Positions 4,670-57,300 of a DNA stretch of 64,000 nt are shown here, piece after piece. Position numbers and translations under genes: made by a program. Position 1 is the first letter of the stretch. Each line of letters opens with the position of its first letter. Source of the DNA: Anadara kagoshimensis (taxonomy: Eukaryota > Mollusca > Bivalvia > Arcoida > Arcidae); NCBI GenBank assembly GCA_021292105.1, contig CM037870.1, forward strand, positions 13,115,234 to 13,179,233. Direction: 5' to 3'. The notes beneath the pieces are model-generated. The model was not told where the DNA came from and searched no databases. It saw nothing but the letters and a program-made list of their open reading frames with translations.

Positions 4670-4965
4670 GTAAAATCGAAGCAACCACCGGAGTAATCTG
4701 GCATACAGTGATGCATTAGTGTCGTGTTGGGACACATTATAGTGAAACGTGACATCAATTGCTTCTGAACTGTATTGCTTTTTTTCACCAGTAAAGACAA
4801 ATATCGGAATATTCTGACATACAGTGATGCAATAGTGTTGTGGTGGTACGTTACATAATATTGAAACGTGACATCAATTGCTTCGGAAGTATTTTGCTAT
4901 TTTTCACCAGTAAAGAAGACAAACACCGGAGTATTCTGACATACAGTGATGTATTAGTGCCTTGG
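4670..4965. repeat. About 120-bp tandem repeat, 2.5 copies
   Basis: CATACAGTGATGCATTAGTG recurs near 4702, 4818 and 4940, each followed by AACGTGACATCAATTGCTTC and a TTTTTCACCAGTAAAGA segment. Confidence 0.7.
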
Positions 4966-5184
4966 TGCTAAAAGCTTAATTGATGGAAGTATAATTGTAT
5001 TTTGTAAAGGTTTATAGCAAGTCAAAATGTCACAAACACGCTTACATAGCTACACATGTATATTGTAACCAAGCGGGGTGTCTATTCTTTTAAAAAACAA
5101 CGCTGGATACACCAGTTAGTGAATGGAATTTAAAGATGGATCTAGGATAAAACCTTACTCGACTTGACATAAAAGTGCCTTTCA

Positions 5185-6324
5185 ATGGAAGTTTTAGATT
5201 TAGTTTTTGCTTCCATTCTGATAATGTTTTCTATGCTGTCCCTGATGTTCAATTCAGCATTAATATTCATCATACTTAAAACCAAAGTTTTACACACGTG
5301 TACCAACTCGTTTGTTTTATCTCTAGCATTTAGCGAAATGATGATTGCCTTTGTGATATTACCAGTTCATTCAGCTTCGAGAATCGCCCAAGGATGGGTT
5401 TTCAATGACGGTATATGTAAGTGCGTTGCATTTTTAAACACAGTTGGTAGGTGTTCGTCAATGATGTCTCTTATGTTCCTTTCTATTGATAGATGCATTG
5501 CTGTTTGGAAACCTCTCAAATACTCATCAATTGTGACTTCACAGACCTCTGCTATAATGATAGGATATTTATGGTGCCAAAGTTTAATTTTTGGTATACT
5601 ACCTTTAGTAAATATAGGCTTTTATCAATTCAATAATGAACAGTATTTATGTATATACGACGTACTATCTGATAGCACATTTGCAATAGTCAGATTTATT
5701 ATAGCCTTATTTGTTCCATATCTTATCATAATTACGTGCCTTGTGAAGATCCTTCTAGAAGCCAGATCTAGACATAGCATTTTCGCTCTAGCTACTATTC
5801 CTTTGAGATTAAATGGACTTGGTCCAATTAATTTTAATACCAGGACTCTTAAAGCAATGAAGTCCCTATTTTGTATAGTTTTAGCATATACATTTCTATG
5901 TTTACCGGACTCTATTATGAACATTGTTAAGTTGTTGAACAAGCAGTACTTGATACAGGTGCACAAGGTTGTGTATATATTGGTAACTCTGTTATCGTCA
6001 TCATGTTGTTTTGTCACGCCAGTAATAATAACTCTATTCAACAAAAAGTACAAGCAAAAATTAAAAGAATTCAAAACTTGTTGTAGTTGTAAAAACAAAG
6101 TGGTTCCATCTAGGTCACATCTGGAGGACTTTTCAGTTACCTCTGGGTTACACACTTTATTAGGAACAACGTTAATTTTTAATATTCAAATGGAAAAGAG
6201 GAATGCCAGTGTTTCATTGTCCACATCAAGCACCTATGATCCACCTGCTGTCAGGAACTCAGTTGATCTCAGAACTCGTTTTAGTGGGATGTCAAGTGTT
6301 GCCATACAGGAGGAACAGATTTAA
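5185..6324 (+). CDS. Rhodopsin-like (class A) G protein-coupled receptor, intronless
   Basis: An uninterrupted 379-codon frame encodes a seven-pass plasma-membrane receptor. Predicted helices lie near residues 7-31, 42-63, 79-101, 122-145, 166-190, 224-246 and 260-284. Seen landmarks: Asn23 in TM1, LSLAFSE in TM2, the Cys78/Cys156 pair that would join TM3 to the second extracellular loop, SIDRC at 100-104 in place of (D/E)RY followed by IAVWKPLKY, FLCLP at 237-241 in TM6 and TPVII in TM7. The first eight residues after TM7 are basic, then a CCSC cluster (299-302) could be palmitoylated. An in-frame TAA at 5170-5172 supports the ATG, leaving an N-terminus of only about six residues. TM2 carries Glu51 where most family members have the sodium-site Asp. 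The amine/peptide receptor type of fold is plain, but I cannot name the ligand. Its base composition matches the flanks, so there is no sign of transfer. Confidence 0.92.
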   Translation: MEVLDLVFASILIMFSMLSLMFNSALIFIILKTKVLHTCTNSFVLSLAFSEMMIAFVILPVHSASRIAQGWVFNDGICKCVAFLNTVGRCSSMMSLMFLSIDRCIAVWKPLKYSSIVTSQTSAIMIGYLWCQSLIFGILPLVNIGFYQFNNEQYLCIYDVLSDSTFAIVRFIIALFVPYLIIITCLVKILLEARSRHSIFALATIPLRLNGLGPINFNTRTLKAMKSLFCIVLAYTFLCLPDSIMNIVKLLNKQYLIQVHKVVYILVTLLSSSCCFVTPVIITLFNKKYKQKLKEFKTCCSCKNKVVPSRSHLEDFSVTSGLHTLLGTTLIFNIQMEKRNASVSLSTSSTYDPPAVRNSVDLRTRFSGMSSVAIQEEQI

Positions 6325-28276: not shown

Positions 28277-29045
28277 CCTGGACTTATATTATATAGAGTC
28301 GAAATCTATATTTCATTGATTCAATGCATTGTTTATTTCATGTTTGGTCGCTTTCCAATTTATTTTTTTTAAAATAACTTGAGAAAAAGTAAACACCTGT
28401 CATAATTTAAAAATTCAAATCTATAATTTAAGTTAAAACCATAGCTTTATCATTTTGAAGAACGGATCCAGATGATTTTTTTGTCATTGCGGAAGGGAAA
28501 GCAATGCTTAGTTGCAAATGGTAATGGAAACTTAATTGTGTTGGAAGATTCGTTCCTATTTTAGTTAACTCATACAGTCGAACCATTTTAAGTGGACGTG
28601 ACTTGGATTTTACTTCTGATGCTGACAGGTTCACTTTTCTATCTGGGTTTTGTTTCAGATGAAAACTTATAATATTGATAATATTTTGGTGAAACTTGCA
28701 CTCGTATATATGTTATCAGATTTTCAGAAACCTCCTTCACGAAACGTATACCTGGGTTTCAGGCACTTTCTTGTGTTTGTTTTTTTCTATAGTTAACTAT
28801 ACAGATTCTTTAACTTTCCATGGTTTCGCATAAATGTAATTGGGATTAATTTGAGCGAATACGCTTCAATAAATGTTTTTCTTCTTTTTCAATGAGAAAA
28901 CGATTAATTTTATTTTCAAGACGAAAGCTCTATAGTCAGAATAACATATGTACAATATATATGCTTTATATTTCAGTTAATGCTTTGATGTAAGTAAGAA
29001 GATGGGATATTTGCATGTATGACGGAGACCTAAAAATTCATAAAG
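28277..29045. other. Upstream flank of the 234-aa gene
   Basis: AT-rich. TTTATATTTCAG ending near 28975 is a possible acceptor for a 5' untranslated exon; nothing else is recognised. Confidence 0.4.
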
Positions 29046-29750
29046 ATGCCACAAGCAACGAATCGGAGACTTATGAGAGACATGAACTTTTCTCCCATTG
29101 GTAAAGGAACGGTCTATAATTCTGTCCTGGATATTAGCGCTTCAACACGTGAGAGAGCAATGAAAGCGAATGTGATGGAATTAAATCGGTTGAACAAGTT
29201 GAACAAAATTGTGGAAAATGACAAACGCCAAAGGGAGTATTTATACACGCGCGTCATGGATCGTGCCGGGCAAAGTATCAAAGAACGTGAGGCGTTCCGA
29301 AGTGTTCTCAACAACGAATATTGTGTTGATAATTTTGTTACAATGAAATACGGGTTTAACAGAAGTATGGTTCAGACGCCAAGAACAGCAAGGCGGTTCA
29401 AAATAGAGACCAGAATATACCATTCAGGGTATGAAAAGAAGTTCTTGACGCCAGAAATTAACAGAAAAATAAGACTCATGGATCCTCAGAGAACCAGGCG
29501 AATTTTTCAAAAGGTTCTATTAGAACAATTTAAAGACAAAAGTGACATTTTGATGGACAGGAACATGTCCCATTCAGCTTTTCATAGAATGCTACAAGAT
29601 CAACAAAATTTTGCTAACTACCGTTATTGTAGACAGCCAAGTAAAGTCCAATTTAAAGGGAACGAAGAAACTATTATTACTGCTGTTGAAGAAGCCAACC
29701 AAGGAAAGACAAACAAAGTGACCGAGGAGTCAGAACCACAATGTACATAA
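29046..29750 (+). CDS. Uncharacterised basic protein, 234 aa, single exon
   Basis: A 234-codon frame with no intron. An in-frame TAA at 29031-29033 supports the ATG. The product is rich in Arg and Lys with little hydrophobic sequence and has no signal peptide or membrane segment, so it should be intracellular. Residues about 33-80 are predicted helical and charged (the LNRLNKLNKIVENDKRQREY region and on), and the middle has Arg-rich patches (ARRFKIETR, MDPQRTRRIF). The C-terminus turns acidic (VTEESEPQCT). I recognise no domain. Length, complex composition and ordinary codon use argue that it is a real gene rather than chance. Its last about 20 codons and 3' flank recur as degenerate tandem copies downstream. 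It could be a lineage-specific protein or a single exon of a longer gene. Confidence 0.72.
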   Translation: MPQATNRRLMRDMNFSPIGKGTVYNSVLDISASTRERAMKANVMELNRLNKLNKIVENDKRQREYLYTRVMDRAGQSIKEREAFRSVLNNEYCVDNFVTMKYGFNRSMVQTPRTARRFKIETRIYHSGYEKKFLTPEINRKIRLMDPQRTRRIFQKVLLEQFKDKSDILMDRNMSHSAFHRMLQDQQNFANYRYCRQPSKVQFKGNEETIITAVEEANQGKTNKVTEESEPQCT

Positions 29751-39560: not shown

Positions 39561-39799
39561 CTAGTCATTGATAGCATCTTCGATAGAATCGTGATTGTAA
39601 TAACATGTCTTCTCTCTGTACATGACTTCCTCAGTTCCGCGATCACAGTAAAGCAGAATAGCTGATACAAGCATGAACACCGCCGCTGCCCATCCAATCC
39701 CATAAGCCCATTCAATCTCCCAGTCGACGATTTCCTGGCGTCTGATCTCCTCAATATACTTTACAGGAAACACAACAAGGCTAATTATTTCTGGAATTG
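39561..39799 (-). CDS. TMEM47: TMEM47-like exon 4
   Basis: Acceptor TTTTTACAG. Encodes the end of TM3, VKYIEEIRRQE, the second loop, TM4 and the 27-residue tail to TAG at 39563-39561. Confidence 0.9.
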
Positions 39800-42700
39800 C
39801 TGTAAAAAGGATTAAGAAAAATAACGGAATAGAAACAAATCCATAAGGTCTACATTGTCAGTAATGAAAGGAAAATATAACAGACAGGCGAATTTAAGAT
39901 GCATTATACAAGAGATTAAATGTATTTTACAAAAAATTGCTGATGGATTTCAAAGACATAACTACAAAATTGCCAGCAGCAGTATAACTCTGCAATATGA
40001 GTAGAGTCTTATATAAAGCGTTTCTAATTATTAAAGCCACACAAACACACACATGACAAAGTAATAACTAAAACTTCTCTTTACAGCCAAATACCCTGAC
40101 TAAAATTTGACTTAGTGGCCTTGACCTTTGATTATGACCTACATACCAAAATGAAATTTGGTACGCGATAAATCGTCTTATTTAACCCAATTTGACAGTT
40201 ATCAAATGTTTTACTTTGCTTTGGGATTGTGATTTGAACGTGGATTGGTATATCTGTTTTTGATTAGATATACATTTGTACCACGTTTGGTTAAACTCAA
40301 TCCATAGATGTGAAAGTTATGGAGTAGACACGATTTTAACATGGACAGACATATATATCCCTTCCCTTTTCTAATCAAAAACAAACGTACTAATCCATGT
40401 CCGAACTAAGTGAACTAAATATACTGGGTGGATATATCTGCTATCAGATAGTAAGAAAATTGATAAGTACAAGGTATTGTTGAAAGGTTAATGAAAAAAA
40501 GAAACCGGAGTAATGTTTATATCAATTAGTGTCCTTCCTGTAGCCCTATGATATTTTATGGTATGTGAAATATAATCTCAATCATCGTCAGCTGTTGGAA
40601 ATCAAAATCATCATACGGAGGTTAATTTGCAAAACAATAATATCGATTACAGGGAAACAACATTGACCTGTCCGCTTCACTTTTCACTTTTGCTAGGAGG
40701 ATCCACCCAATATATAGACAAGGTTAGTGTCATCATATAATTTTTTTAATTTTCTGAATGAAATATTAAAAAAATTATATGACATTAGGATCAGCAGTTA
40801 GCATCAATTGTACATACACAATTCACGGACTTGAACCTTTAGCACCTAACTTTAGGTTAATGTTTACCTTACTGGCTTAGCTTCTTTTTTCCTTACTATC
40901 TTGACTTCTCAGTCATTAATTCCACATATGGATATGAATATGTTTCAAATCATCGTGTCCCTATGATGTAGAAATAAATGTCTAGTGTTCCCTATACATG
41001 AATGCAATGGCCCATAATAAATATAAAATAAAAGGTCAAGCTGACAGGTCAATGTTGTTTGCCTTACACTCTCAGACTTACCCGCTAAAACCATGGTAAT
41101 CATTGAAAGTAGATAATATTTATATTTAAATCGGAAATTGGCAGTTTGTAAACCAATGGTTGCAAATGTAACTCCAACAAAACAGGTTAATAATGACAAT
41201 ATACACAGGAATCGACAGCCTATCAACCAATCTGAAATAGTAAACATAGAACATTTATAGTGAGCGACCTATACACAGGAATCGACAGCCTATCAACCGA
41301 TATTAAATAGTGAAAATAGAACATTTATAGTGAGCGACCTATACATAGGAATCGACAGCCTATCAACCGATCTTAAATAGTGAAAATACAACATTTATTG
41401 TGAGCGACCTATACACAGGAATCGATATCCTATCAACCAATTTGAAATAGTGAAAATAAAACATTTATATAGTGAGCGACAATATACACTGAAATCAACA
41501 ACCTATCAACCAATCTGAAATAGTAAAAATAGAACATTTATAGTGAGCAACCTATACATAGGAATCGACAGCATATCTGATGAAAATAGAACATTTATAG
41601 TGGGCGAGCATATACACATAGAAATCGACAGCCTATCAGCCAATCTGAAATAGTGAAAATGGAACATTTATAGTGATAACGATATACACAGGAATCGACA
41701 GCCTAACAGCCAAGCTGAAAAGTGAAAATAGAACATTTATATAGTGAGCGACCATATACAGAAATGGACAACCAATTCAACAATTGTGAAAATTGAACAC
41801 AGAATATTTATAGTGATGATAAAACAGTAACAAAATAGCGGTTTAAGACTTGTAATGGAAGGCCCCAGTTTCACAATTATTCCTAAACTAAGATTTTCCT
41901 TAACGTAAATCGTGTTAATGTTTAAGATATCCGGAAAATGTAAGTGTTGGTTTGAAGATGTCTTCGAACTTACAACATTTGAAATTCTTTTTATTAATTT
42001 TTTTTATTTAAATTAAAAAAAATACCAAAATGATAAATTATTTTAAGTTGCCTTAAAATATTGCGAGTCACATATGTGTGACGTCATAAAAGTAACAGGA
42101 ATATATCTTACACGGCTGGCAATACTTGTAGTAATAGTGATGCTGTAACGGCGTATGATATGATGAATGTAGAAGAAAAAACCGGCATAATATTGGTATG
42201 TTTTGGATAAACGAAATGGGAGTTTTCTATTCTTAGGGCTTGTTCTCAGTTCATTGCCCTCGAGAAAATGTGTGGTGCCATTGCCATTTCATGAGGGATA
42301 AGTTTGTTTACCTCTTGAATTATTTGTGTCACATTCAACCTCGTTTTCGCCAATGTAAAAACAAATTTGCCATAATCCCTCTCTTGTATCATTGGCCTTC
42401 AGCCAGGCGCTAGCGACGATGGACAATCCATTGAAAAATATTGCAATGACTCCACACAGCACAGCGATCACCTATAAATAAATATACAATTTAATAAATG
42501 AACTGTCTACAAGAAGATGATATAGTCAACCAAAGGTATGTATGACCATTTTAATGGCCTAGATTCGTATGTCACAATTTGTTGGTGTCCTAGAGCCTAA
42601 TGCAAACAGTGCCTTTGTTTGAATCTCAATTGGACAGATCTTTGAGAAAGTTTTTTGTAGATTTTTTGACGAAGATAGGTGGTTTTCCGGGTCACTCCAG

Positions 42701-45700
42701 TCCCCTCGACCATTCCCGAAATGACTGCATTGACATAAGTGAAATTATCTTGACCTGGATGTAAAACACCATGACCTCATTCCACCATCCCAGAAATGAC
42801 CACCTGGATATAGGAAAATAAATCTTGACTGGGGCGTAATCCGATATTTACCCATTGTTCGCCATCCTATACAAAAATGGTATACAGGATACATTTATGT
42901 AATTGAATGATTACTTTTTAATCCATAGGGAATGGGAAATTCACTAGAGTGTTGAAAACTCCATTTTCATCAAAACGGTCCTTCTAAAACGCCAAACAAC
43001 AATATGTACAAGCAATTGATTATGAGTATTTGAGTAAATTTTTACACGTATATGTACTTGGATTACATGTACTGGTCCCGGTTTCACAATCATTTCTTAA
43101 CTTAAGATTTTCCTTAACTTAAATCTGGCAAATTAAGAACCTTTATAATTTTGTTAACTGTTCAGATATTAGGATATTTAAGGTGTCGTTTTAAAGATTC
43201 TATCAAGCTAATGACATCTGCATTTAGTTTTTACAAAAATATTTATTTGTAGTTCAAAACATAGCTTGCCAAAATTTGCTGAATTTAAGTTAAGGAAAAT
43301 CTTAGTTAAGGAATGATTGTGAAACTGGGGCCAGGTGCGTTCCACGACCACGCATAAAGCACTATTAAGCTAGTTTTTACATAATGTCACTCCAAATAAT
43401 CCAAAATGGAAGTCAACAACCTTAGACATATCTAAAAAACTTTATTGGTATGAATAGTTCAAGTGTAGCGAGTTGTCTTGGTGTTCATCTAGTAAAGTAT
43501 AAGAAAACAATGTATGTTTTTATGTATTTGGCATTGATATATGTAGATCAGTTGGGTGGTAATCATAAATAACTGCCTTGTTTTTTCTTGTGTTATTGAT
43601 AGTGACCGAAATACAGACATATGTACATAATATATGTATTTATAGTATGCAGACGTAAGAAAAGTAAACACGTATACAAATAAGCATTGTCTTCAACATT
43701 TTAAAATCCTGTATCTCAAGAAATCAAGATTATTTTTCAATTTAGTATTTTAACTCATTAACCATGAAAACTGTGTGTTCAGTATCCTACTTAAGGCATA
43801 AAAAGGTTATTTAAAGAGTAAAATAAAGGGGTTTGGATGTTTTACGGGATCTGGACCAGCAATAATGCCTTATTTGAAGGCATTGAAGCAAATGTCGGCA
43901 AAAAGAAGCCACAATAACATATATCAGTAGTTTGTTATTGCCATTTTCTTTTAAACTGCTAAAAGAATGAACAGTCGAAGAATTGCTATCATTTTATTGC
44001 TCAGAAGTTAGAATTAGCAAAGGTATGGAGAGACAGAATAGACTTTTAAAGAAGAATAAAACTGTTTGTGTCTCTCATGAAAAGTTGCATGTTTGAATAC
44101 TTGGTCCCGGTTTCACACTGCAGATTCCTTACCTAAGATTTTTGCTTAACCTAAATCTGGCAAATTTCAATTCTTTATAATTTTGTTAATTTTTAAAACA
44201 TTTGGGAATTTAAGGCCACATTTAGATAACAAGAGGCCCATGGGCCTTAACGCTCACCTGTGACCTTTGAACCCATGAGCTTCATTCAAATATCAAAATG
44301 ATAATTCGGCCAATATTCTAATATACATCCCTATACAAAAAGTTTATAGTTTTTGAGATAAATAATCATCTCAGTACTTGTTTGTATCTGTGATCTTGAC
44401 ATTTGAACCCATGCTCTTCATTCATCTATCAAAATGACCACTGTGCCCGTACTAACAATATTCTAATATACATGCCTATACAAAAAGTTAATAGTTTTTA
44501 AGATAATTAACCATTTAGGTATTCATTCGCATCTGTGACCTTGACCTTTAAACCCATGAGCTTCATTCATATATCAAAATGATCATTAGGATAATACCTA
44601 AATAGTCTAATATACATGCCTATACAAAAAGTTCATAGTTTTTGAGATAAATAATCATTTCAGATCTTGTTCACATCTGTGACCTTGACCTTTGAACCCA
44701 TAACCTTCATTCATATATCAAAATGGTTGTTAGGCTAATACCTACAATATTCTAATATACATGCATATCCAAAAAGTTAACAGTTTTCAAGATAAATAAC
44801 CATTCAGGTATTCATTCACATCTGTGACCTTGACCTTTGAACCTATGACCTTCATTCATATATCAAAATGATCGTTAGGATAATACCTAAAATATTCTAA
44901 TATACATGCATATCCAAAAAGTTAACAGTTTTCAAGATAAATAACCATTCAGGTATTCATTCACATCTGTGACCTTGACCTTTGAACCTATGACCTTCAT
45001 TCATATATCAAAATGATCGTTAGGATAATACCTAAAATATTCTAATATACATGCATATCCAAAAAGTTAACAGTTTTCAAGATAAATAACCATTCAGGTA
45101 TTCATTCACATCTGTGACCTTGACCTTTGAACCTATGACCTTCATTCATATATCAAAATGATCGTTAGGATAATACCTAAAATATTCTAATATACATGCC
45201 TATACAAAAAGTTAATAGTTTTCAAGATATATTGACAAATACATAATTTTTAGCAATTTCCCCACTCAGCACCTTACCATTTCCCCATTTTGAGCCCCAT
45301 GGCTACCATTTGTGCAAATCTGAAACTAGATGACCTAAGGATGTTATATATGAAATAAATAAGGTATATGTCTTGTAGATTCAGAGGAGAAGATTTTTAA
45401 AGTTTTTCACTATTTCCCCCCTTATGGGGCCCCAAGGGGACATAACTCCTTCATTTGTGCAAATCTGAGAGGGCTTCACCCAGGCATGATGGTTACCAAG
45501 TTTCATTAAATTTGGCCCAGTGGTTTTGGAGGAGAAGATTAAAATGTAAAAAGTTTACGCACGACGGACGACGCACGACGGACGAAGATGGATAGCAATA
45601 GCTCATCTGAGCTTTCAGCTCAGGTGAGCTAAAAATATATAAAATATATAGTTTTGGCAAAAATATTTATTATAAGTTAACAAAGGAGATTATAACCCAA

Positions 45701-48700
45701 ATTTCCTTAAGTTAAGTAAAATCTTAACTAAGGGTGATTGTGAAACGGGGTCTGGTTTTATAATGTGGTCGACAATACGCTTGTGGAGAAGAACCATACT
45801 GGACAAATTCGAGGTATTCATCTAATAGGTCACTATAAGCTCTTTAGAGTACACAAGTGCATTCCATGACAAAGAACTAGAAGTTCTATAGCAGTATATA
45901 CATCTGAACACCTCAGTATACGCTACAAGTAATTATAAGGCATAATAGATCAAAGATCACAAAATACGTTTAGACTAAACAAAATGTAAACCCTATTACT
46001 CTGATGGGATCAACGGAATATTTCACTAAATATGAAATATGATAAGATAAACAAGAAGTCCATGGGTGTTTATCCTCACTGAAAATATGACCCATGTCTT
46101 TTGAAGAAATTCAATAGACATTTAACCGTCAAATGTTTCGTACTTCGGGTCCAACAGCCGAGATAGTAACATTTTATGTATCGCTTGTCCTACGAATGCT
46201 ACGTCAAAACTATCTAAGGACTAGCATGCTAATAAATGTTTACAATAGCACAAAAATTAAACTGCCATAACTATTAGGAAAATTATCATCAGCTAGGGTT
46301 TATAATGTAATGCGCATCCCATCAATGTTTATGCGTTGCACCAAGTTTCGCTTAGCTTTGAATAAGCTACTGGCTCCGCACTTGTCTGGACGGAAGGAAG
46401 TTCAATTTTAATAAAAAAAAAAAACTAGGTTTTCGATTAAAACAAGAAGGATATGAATTTTAACTTCCGACCTATTTGTTACACATTTATGATATAAATA
46501 ACAACATGATTAAATTTGTTTTTTTATTAAGAAAATCGAATTGTGGGCTAGCGGTTTTTGTTTTATGAAATTGCGGACTGGAATTGTGGGCTAGCTTCAC
46601 ACCAGTGTTAAAATATGAAAGTAGCACATGACATGCACCGTTATGTTCAATATATGACTGACAGCGCTTTGTTATATGCTGCTGAGAAATTGTGATAATA
46701 CATGTAATATCAAAGTAATACAAGTTGTACAGTCTGCACTTACACTTAAGTTATTTATCATTACGCAATATTGAATGAGTTGCATCTATAACATATAGAC
46801 GATTTATATTTAGAAGATAAGAAGAATTATATGAGTGTTTATTGGTTGTCATTAAGTAATGCTCGTGTTGTAGCTTTCATGGGGCTTCATTATAAATGAA
46901 ACACATCTCTCAAATATCAATCAGAATTAAATCTTACGTAATCTACAGATCAAATATAATCATAACACTATAATACATTGAATAATACAGTAAGACATCG
47001 TTATTATGCCCTTCGATAATTTTGACACCACTTTACTTATTGCCGAGCCCTGGTAAAACTTTGATTTAATGCCCCTCGATAACGCGGTCACCTCACTTAT
47101 CGCCACAATACAGTCAAATCTGTCTTGAACTTCTAAAACGGCAATTAACAATATGTACAAGCATTCGATTATATGAGTATTTGAGTAATTGTTTTTTACC
47201 CTTATATGTACTTGGATTACAGGTGCGTTCTACAACCATGCATAAACCACTATTAAACCTGTTTTATATAATTTTACTCAACATTACCAAAATGAACGTC
47301 AACAACTCTTAAGAAAACTTTATTTGTATAAATAGTTGAAGTGTAACTAGTGACCTTAATGTTCATCTAGAACAGATATCTAGTATATTTTTGCATGTTT
47401 TTGTATTTGGCATTGTTATCTGTAGATCAGCGTTATTGGTATAAATAGTTCAAGTGTAGCTAGGGACCTTAATGTTCATCTAGAACAGATAGCTCTAGTA
47501 TATTTTTGCATGTTTTTTGTACTTATCAATGTTATCTGTAGATCAGTTAGATGGTAACCATAAATAACTGCCTTGTTGTTTTTTTCTTGTGTTATTTATA
47601 GTGACCGAAATACAGACAAGTATACAATAAACAGTGTCTTAAAATCCTAAAACATCATACTATACTACTAGTATGTCCACCATTCACGATTTCTTAAATT
47701 CGGAATATTGTAACTTGACCAGATAATGTATTATCCATGAAATTCCTATTATGCAGGAGACCACTGCGGTAGCTCAGTTGGTAGAGTGCTCGCTCCGTCA
47801 GTGGAAGGTCGTGGGTTCGAACCCCGACCGGGTCTGACTCAAGACGTTAAAGTGGGTAGTGACTGTTCTTTCACCAAACACTCTGCATTACAAAATGAAA
47901 GTCACGTTACTTAAAATAAACGAGGTCCCGTGTCACGGCAGATGTCAAGGCAGATGTGGCACGATAAAGAACCCTGCTGTATAATGTCATCAGCGCGACG
48001 CACAGGCAAAATCCTTGCACCTTCACCTATAGCTTACAATGTCTCGATATAAGTGAAATATTAGTGACTGGGACGTTAAATGCCATTACTTAATTTCTAT
48101 TATGCAGGAGCCAAAAAAGTCAAGCGTAAACTAAAGATATAAAGTTTTAGATGAAAATAATGTTCGACCTAGAGTGTTTATAAATACAGGATATGAGCAA
48201 TCGAGAAATTCCTATTTGAGAGAAAACAAATAACGTGCATGTTTGTTATTTTGCCATATATTGCTTAAGGGATAAACAGCCGAGCGTGGCTTATTCTAGA
48301 AGTGGACCATTGCTCCCTTATTTTGACAATTTATTCCATTATTAAGACCTTTGTGTCACATTTAACATTACAAATGAATGCAAAATTATTTATGTCATGG
48401 AGTTTTAGACGAAAGTTAATGAAAACAACTAAAAACCCTAGATTTAACAGTGACCAAAGAACTGCTATCATTTTATTGTTCATAAGGTTAATTGTAGGCA
48501 GATGTTATATCTACAAAGTACCTTGCAATTCTTTGTTTTATGCTGCTAAGAAGTTGTGGTAATACGTCATGTAATATCTAAGTACGAGTTGTACAGAAAT
48601 GATACAAGTCTGCACTAACACTTACATAAAGTTATTTATCATTACGCAATATTGAACACAGTTACATCTATGAAGGAGATTTATATATAAAAGATAAGAA

Positions 48701-54386: not shown

Positions 54387-57300
54387 TAATGCGGATGCAA
54401 CTTTTTATTTAAAATATGTTCAATCACCACCATCTCTAAATAGTTATGACTTGGCTCAAAACAGTCAAAAATATAATTCATACATAAAACAAAATAAGGT
54501 GAATGAAGTCTAAATACTTTGAAAGCATATTGTATCATTCATTAATTTCTACTATGATCTTCTTAAGACCGAACTACCTGCCTTAACAATGGTATTTACA
54601 TCTTGATGCTGCTACCATGATCGCAGCAATCTCAAAAAGTAAATTGCCGTCGTTAAGGCACATAGTTCAACTAAGATTAGTCTCACAAATCAGCCCACTA
54701 AACCCCCATTTTAAATCTTGCTTTGTTGCTCAAAACAGGACAAAAAATAAAATGGGGTTTATTGAGCTTGTTAGTTGAACTAGACCTTGATATATATACA
54801 TGAACTTCGCCAAGTTAAATTACTCGCCGTATGTTTTATTGGATTTTCAACTTAGATATAAATTCGTAAATAACATTTAGCAACTCCTTGAACTTTTTAA
54901 AATTTTTAATAAAATTTAGAATATTGAAAATAAAACAACAATAAACACACAGTAAGGCTTAGTAGTCGCACAGTACAGTTTACAGTAAGCTACAATACAG
55001 ACCTGTCGAAAGTTTAACACTGAGCTTACGAAAATGTGTGAAGGCTCGGCTACCGAGGGGCCAAGATATGGATAATTGTGGCCGATAGGCTGAGGAGATA
55101 TACAAAACAGCTACCGAAAAAAAAACTGCCGAGATATTGATAATGAGAAGACGAGTTTTAGCACGAATTCGTTAGCTTAGTGTTAAACTTTCGACAGGCC
55201 TGTACTGTAGCTAATGAAAAGTGTCAAAAATTGGCTGTCAAGTGGCTGAAGTCTGAATATATCTTGTGGCCAATAAGCTACAGAGACAGATAGCAATTAC
55301 CCTGAAACTTTTCGAGATATTGCTAATGAGGAATCGAAATGAGCTTCCAATTCGGCACCAATTCGTTAGCTTATTGTTAAACTTTCGACAGACCTGTATC
55401 TTACCTATATTATCGTAAACAGCACACAGTACTAGACTGTCAAAAGTTTAACACAAAACCATCTCATCCCGGCCCCCGTACGATATATCTCCACAACATT
55501 TCGACAGCTACTGTACCGGCCCCCGTACGATATATCTCCACAACATTTCGACAGCTACTGTACCGGCCCCCGTACGATATATCTCCACAACATTTCGACA
55601 GCTACTGTACCGGCCCCCGTACGATATATCTCCACAACATTTCGACAGCTGCTGTGCCGGCCCCCGTACGATATATCTCCACAACATTTCGACAGCTACT
55701 GTACCGGCCCCCGTACGATATATCTCCACAACATTTCGACAGCTACTGTACCGGCCCCCGTACGATATATCTCCACAACATTTCGGCAGCTACTGTACCG
55801 GCCCCCGTACGATATATCTCCACAACATTTCGACAGCTACTGTACCGGCCCCCGTACGATATATCTCCACAACATTTCGACAGCTACTGTACCGGCCCCC
55901 GTACGATATATCTCCACAACATTTCGACAGCTACTGTACCGGCCCCCGTACGATATATCTCCACAACATTTCGACAGCTACTGTACCGGCCCCCGTACGA
56001 TATATCTCCACAACATTTCGACAGCTACTGTACCGGCCCCCGTACGATATATCTCCACAACATTTCGACAGCTGCTGTACCGGCCCCCGTACGATATATC
56101 TCCACAACATTTCGACAGCTGCTGTACCGGCCCCCGTACGATATATCTCCACAACATTTCGACAGCTACTGTACCGGCCCCCGTACGATATATCTCCACA
56201 ACATTTCGACAGCTACTGTACCGGCCCCCGTACGATATATCTCCACAACATTTCGACAGCTACTGTACCGGCCCCCGTACGATATATCTCCACAACATTT
56301 CGACAGCTACTGTACCGGCCCCCGTACGATATATCTCCACAACATTTCGACAGCTACTGTACCGGCCCCCGTACGATATATCTCCACAACATTTCGACAG
56401 CTACTGTACCGGCCCCCGTACAATATATCTCCACAACATTTCGACAGCTACTGTACCGGCCCCCGTACGATATATCTCCACAACATTTCGACAGCTACTG
56501 TACCGGCCCCCGTACGTATATCTCCACAACATTTCGACAGCTACTGTACCGGCCCCCGTACGGCATATCTCCACAACATTTCGACAGCTACTGTCTATCT
56601 CTTGGTAGCGTTTCTGACACTACTTGCTATCGGCTTCTGTCATTGAACATTTGACTCCTATCTGTTAGCTCATTGTTAAATTTTTGACAGGTCTGTCCTG
56701 TAGGTAATATACAATAATGTGGGAGGACATTCAATCTTCTTGGGCATTAAATGTGAATAAAGAAAAAATATTTAATATAAATGAAAGACTAAAGAGTAAA
56801 CAGATTAATATTTATTTCGTTTGTCGAAGCCGGTGGCACTCTATTGGATTTCATCTAGTCCAACATTGTTCGTCATTATTGTTTACCTTGTTGGACTAAG
56901 TTTCCTCTAAGAATTCAGAACCAATAACCTCAATATCGGCGAAATAATCTTTAGTTGGCCCTGAAACAACATTGCACCACCGCCTACACCATCACCGTAG
57001 ACCGAAAAAAAAACAACCCATGATCCAAGTTCAATATACATAGAAAATGTTATATATTCTAATGTAATTTTTTTTTAATTTCTTGAACTATTTATCTCTG
57101 TTTCTTGAAATAATTATCAATTAAATAAATGTATGACGAAGTTTCCTCAAAGAATTCAGAACCAATAATTTCAATATCGGCGAAATAATCTTTACAACAA
57201 TGCGCCGCCGCATACACCATCATAAACAATCCACGATTCAATTGCAATATGCATAGCAAATTTTATATATTTATTTCTTGAACCATGCATTTATCTCTGT

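Follow-up and report, generated by a model that had tools for sequence, protein, structure and literature searches.

Minisatellites that run across an intron-exon boundary have already been described and named. In amphioxus, minisatellite-like tandem duplications of this boundary, termed mirages, are present in Adh3 and in the globin genes BflGb6 and BflGb9, according to one account (PMC3087553), and TnC and PGBD5 are given as further amphioxus mirages in another (PMC3902484). The former account puts the units at 10-72 bp in Adh3 and at 150-160 bp in BflGb6, reports copy-number variation, with six and three units in two haplotypes of a mirage, and finds AG or GT kept in many, not all, of the copies (PMC3087553). 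It further describes inner units of BflGb6 that are homogenised and boundary units that escape, and data on Adh3 together with RT-PCR of the globins suggested regular splicing despite the mirages (PMC3087553).

The locus described here is built much like these. Its array unit spans an intron-exon boundary, exonic bases included, the splice signal is partly kept (AG in five of eight upstream copies), and as in BflGb6 the repeated segment joins the 3' end of an intron to the first part of the exon that follows. Different from the amphioxus cases, the host gene belongs to the claudin superfamily, and the array is known here from one sequence. The homogenisation pattern of BflGb6 is matched by the outer unit of our array (U0, 63-74% identical to the others) but not by the unit of the exon itself (U8, 90-92% identical to U4).

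Two human systems are related in part. The units of the IFI6 minisatellite supply donor sites and reportedly yield three mRNA species (PMC4526556). Genes of human segmental duplications have variable minisatellites at their exon-intron boundaries, which may switch on cryptic splice sites and create new introns; these repeats have an average unit of 30 bp repeated 4 times, and half of the variable repeats detected lie in coding sequence (PMC2812944). The likeness to IFI6 is that minisatellite units carry a splice site, several being usable in that gene, whereas the sites are donors there and acceptors here; the internal tandem repeats of the segmental duplications likewise sit at exon-intron boundaries, with a 30-bp unit in four copies as opposed to the 70-bp unit here. 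The minisatellite of IFI6 (6-16) with its multiple splice donor sites was reportedly described by Turri in 1995.

The host gene and its array

The window, that is the whole 64-kb stretch of DNA that was analysed, has a GC content of 33.4%, and Rfam (at the gathering threshold) and ARAGORN returned no matches. On its minus strand lies a gene whose exon calls rest on open frames, splice consensus and a domain match (Table 1). Translated as one, exons 2-4 match PF00822 over residues 6-152 (E 2.9e-14, 53.8 bits versus a gathering score of 26.7; Pfam), and exons 2 and 3 alone do so over residues 6-89 (E 5.3e-8). Judged by this match of its predicted product, the gene is a member of the PMP22/EMP/MP20/claudin superfamily; the first-pass annotation had called it TMEM47-like, and the C-terminal part of the product presumably resembles TMEM47. 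Exon 3 starts with G/AT TGG and reads D W L I G C R F L C I L. Exon 4 can be joined in open frame at 39799 and, as an in-frame alternative, at 39790, the former join being the one that extends the PF00822 match to residues 6-152. Exon 1 was not found on a reading of the list of open reading frames only.

Table 1. Features of the claudin-like gene and of the array at its intron 2-exon 3 boundary. Junctions are given by their first exonic base; a slash marks the junction.
Feature	Position	Strand	Remarks
70-bp minisatellite in claudin-like gene	41200..41816	minus	TRF: 8.9 copies, 77% matches, score 653
Exon 2	42312..42471	minus	160 nt, phase 0 to 1; open frame
Exon 2 splice sites		minus	acceptor ATTTATAG/GTG; donor GAG/GTAAAC
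Intron 2	41232..42311	minus	1080 nt; array fills final 585 nt
J0	41778	minus	outermost upstream unit, most diverged (63-74% to others); AG lost
J1	41714	minus	CTTTTCAG/CT; AG kept
J2	41644	minus	CTATTTCAG/AT; duplicate acceptor intact
J3	41576	minus	deletion over junction; TTTTCATCAG/AT; AG present
J4	41514	minus	CTATTTCAG/AT, duplicate acceptor intact; unit tail TATATTGTC, shared with the real exon
J5	41441	minus	CAA; AG lost
J6	41371	minus	AAG; AG kept, C to A at -3
J7	41301	minus	AAT; AG lost
Presumed real exon 3 acceptor	41231	minus	last of nine junctions in array
Exon 3	41082..41231	minus	150 nt, phase 1 to 1; donor CGG/GTAAGT
Exon 4, last coding exon	39561..39799	minus	acceptor TTTTTACAG/CAA

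Each unit of the array contains a T/C-rich tract, the acceptor position and the start of exon 3, and the nine junctions follow one another at distances of 64, 70, 68, 62, 73, 70, 70 and 70 nt. The first-pass annotation had described such a unit, a 3' splice site plus exon start repeated so that several near-identical sites precede the presumed real one, and both TRF and the junction positions support this description. The array itself stands, with a small correction of its bounds from 41206-41800 to the 41200-41816 given by TRF. The position of the exon 2 donor (42311) is the one annotated before, and the about eight further copies that had been placed in intron 2 correspond to the eight upstream junctions counted. 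About 35 coding bases of exon 3 had been assigned to the array; by unit comparison the last unit takes in the first ~33-37 nt of the exon, and the likeness to exon 3 extends over ~33 nt in units without a deletion there and over 37 nt (to TATATTGTC) in the 41514 unit. At least two intronic copies had also been credited with an intact CTATTTCAG/AT and others with a lost junction. The exact sequence is indeed found at 41644 and 41514 only, two of the eight upstream junctions, and AG is kept at five of the eight (J1-J4 and J6) and absent from the remaining three (J0, J5 and J7).

Shuffling the whole window 100 times with dinucleotides preserved gave no array with a period of at least 30 and, at any period, a top score of 76; the shuffle script recovered the real array as a positive control. 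A search at E values up to 1 revealed no other copies of the unit in the 64-kb window, where the best outside match is 25 nt long (E 0.023); copies at further loci would be the mark of an introner or of a splice site carried by a transposon.

The window holds further repeats and open frames. A 145-bp array (44312-45229; 6.3 copies, 90%), whose consensus holds TGACCTTGACCTTTGAACC, lies upstream of exon 2 and perhaps within intron 1 of the claudin-like gene. A 47-bp array at 55469-56594 (24 copies, 98% match) can be read without a stop in each of the three plus-strand frames for 390-421 aa, and its uniformity suggests that it is young. The single open frame at 5179-6324 encodes a rhodopsin-family GPCR (PF00001, E 1.9e-34), and a 119-bp tandem repeat (4678-4967) lies about 210 bp upstream of it. 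Pfam gave nothing better than E 0.51 for the 235-aa open frame at 29043-29750, and at 47694-47914 ORF translations such as SSVGRVLAPSVEGRGFEPRPG resemble what we take to be a tRNA-derived SINE signature.

Upstream acceptors: reading frame and site strength

What would become of a transcript that is spliced to one of the upstream junctions? When exon 2 is joined to J1-J7, an in-frame stop starts 44, 47, 68, 17, 44, 44 and 44 nt past the respective junction, those of J5 and J7 being hypothetical because these junctions are without AG. In six of the seven the stop precedes the end of the junction's own unit, and that of J3, at 68 nt, lies shortly after the start of the next unit; a join to J0, which has no AG either, meets an in-frame stop at 140 nt. 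None of the 32 AGs tested in intron 2, which were taken from 60 nt past its 5' end onwards and include the five AG-bearing array junctions, can be joined so that the frame stays open into exon 3. It had been suggested that the frame would be kept if the units used sum to a multiple of three. This does not hold: since the upstream junctions all meet in-frame stops and none of the 32 AGs is open, no number of units rescues the frame. Retention of intron 2 leads to a stop after 20 nt. The stops behind the decoy junctions lie 173-586 nt before the exon 3/4 junction, farther than the ~50-55 nt that are commonly given for NMD. By this reckoning, mRNA made from the upstream sites would probably be truncated and targeted by NMD.

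The strength of the sites was assessed by simple counts, with no trained splice model. A branch-point-like CTCAC (YTNAY) is located at -33 to -35 in six of the nine units and is absent from those of J0, J2 and J3. The 16 positions from -20 to -5 hold 13 pyrimidines in J1, J2, J4, J5 and J7, 12 in J6 and the presumed real site, and 10 in J0 and J3. By the pyrimidine count the presumed real site ranks below the AG-bearing junctions at 41714, 41644 and 41514, so that site strength, as measured by a simple count, has no explanatory power for the choice of acceptor. As these three decoys each have one extra pyrimidine, the choice would have to depend on context, for example on how far away the donor is.

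We also considered that units might act as micro-exons of 33 nt, with the acceptor at the unit start and an internal donor TATAG/GTCGCT. We set this reading aside, the best donor-like sites of the array matching five of the nine positions of the consensus (MAG/GTRAGT).

Origin and history of the array

The exonic part of the unit encodes DWLIGCRFLCI, which lies inside the PF00822 match that spans the exon 2/3 junction. In single-sequence comparisons this peptide is aligned with QDLQAARALIV of claudin-3 at marginal significance (E 0.042), and a match of the exonic part to claudin-9 is equally marginal (E 0.05). As the claudin-family match extends over the junction, and no second copy of the unit is present in the window, the edge of exon 3 is probably the origin of the array and not its result. 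Most likely, then, this coding edge was copied into the intron and gave rise to the array. Pairwise divergence among seven units, which include the real one but not those of J0 and J3, amounts to 0.143 in the exonic part and 0.107 in the intronic part. The intronic copies of the exonic part are no less diverged than the intronic part itself, as would be expected if they are not coding. By codon position 1, 2 and 3 the divergence of the exonic part is 0.216, 0.078 and 0.134, values from which we draw nothing.

Apart from the outermost unit, the units differ in how closely they are related, U6 and U7 being the closest pair (94% identity). Among U1-U8, with U0 left out, the mean identity of units that are four places apart is 0.878 as compared to 0.825-0.856 at the five other offsets (permutation p 0.018, a post hoc value for one of six offsets). 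This hints at a duplication of a block of four units (U1-U4 to U5-U8), by which 41514 would once have been the exon-proximal junction, but is only suggestive.

At all three junctions nearest to the real one (41441, 41371 and 41301) the acceptor is lost or weakened. Pairwise divergence at positions -3 to -1 is 0.33 among the seven units, which over the whole intronic part show 0.107 and over the exonic part 0.143. Changes in CAG were counted over the decoys J1, J2 and J4-J7, J0 being dropped for its divergence and J3 for its deletion. In terms of minimum events, CAG holds three of 21, an excess that is not significant (binomial p 0.085) and a number that is reached by six of 58 triplets; in terms of raw cells, in which those shared by descent are counted twice, CAG holds four of 28, a number reached by one of 58 triplets, CAG itself. 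One could imagine a rheostat, in which the copy number of acceptor-bearing units sets the share of transcripts that is lost to premature stops and selection disarms the junctions nearest to the real exon. We regard such a mechanism as quite improbable.

Explanations for the array

In our view the array is probably a minisatellite of the mirage type that is mostly silent, with the exon-proximal acceptor in use. An intragenic tandem duplication of a ~70-bp piece that spans the acceptor of intron 2 would have started it, and unequal exchange or slippage would later have led to nine units. If the acceptor nearest to the downstream donor is used, the additional copies become intron and the mRNA is unchanged, and for this reason such a duplication can persist. 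We infer that 41231 is mainly used, by exon definition, because it yields the smallest exon, which measures 150 nt as compared to 290-633 nt from the five AG-bearing decoys and adjoins the GTAAGT donor. Any products of the upstream sites would be truncated and destroyed by NMD, and in all likelihood the array is nearly neutral.

A different picture emerges if the intact upstream acceptors are used steadily, or if they retain U2 snRNP and delay the removal of intron 2, in which case the length of the array would tune the amount of productive mRNA via NMD or intron retention. There is material for this in the two intact and three more AG-bearing acceptors with their T/C-rich tracts, and in the stops that end the decoy products as well as a retained intron 2, and there are papers which pair 'decoy exons' with intron retention. 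However, it is at the three junctions closest to the real one that the acceptor has been lost or weakened, and the published mirages are reported without disturbance of splicing; we consider steady use or stalling at the decoys unlikely. The near-perfect match of the exon unit to the array consensus over 33 nt could also mean that the minisatellite came first and, by exonisation, provided exon 3 with its beginning and with a new acceptor. Such an origin would have to be reconciled with a claudin-family match that spans the junction, marginally so in the single-sequence comparison too, and with an array that has no second unit locus within the 64-kb window, and it appears highly improbable to us.

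Then again, tandem arrays are often misassembled, and the copy number might be inflated or the units scrambled. Of one published mirage the authors state that the draft genome gives what appears to be a misassembled version of a haplotype (PMC3087553). But the units of the present array differ from each other by 6-37% in sequence and are spaced at 62-73 nt, which argues against one unit having been repeated by error, and makes an assembly artefact, too, very unlikely in our judgement. The array represents a natural test of how the spliceosome chooses one 3' splice site among near-identical neighbours. If the window comes from another lineage, the mirage phenomenon may reach beyond amphioxus, the animal with which the two accounts consulted that use the term in this sense are concerned (PMC3087553, PMC3902484).
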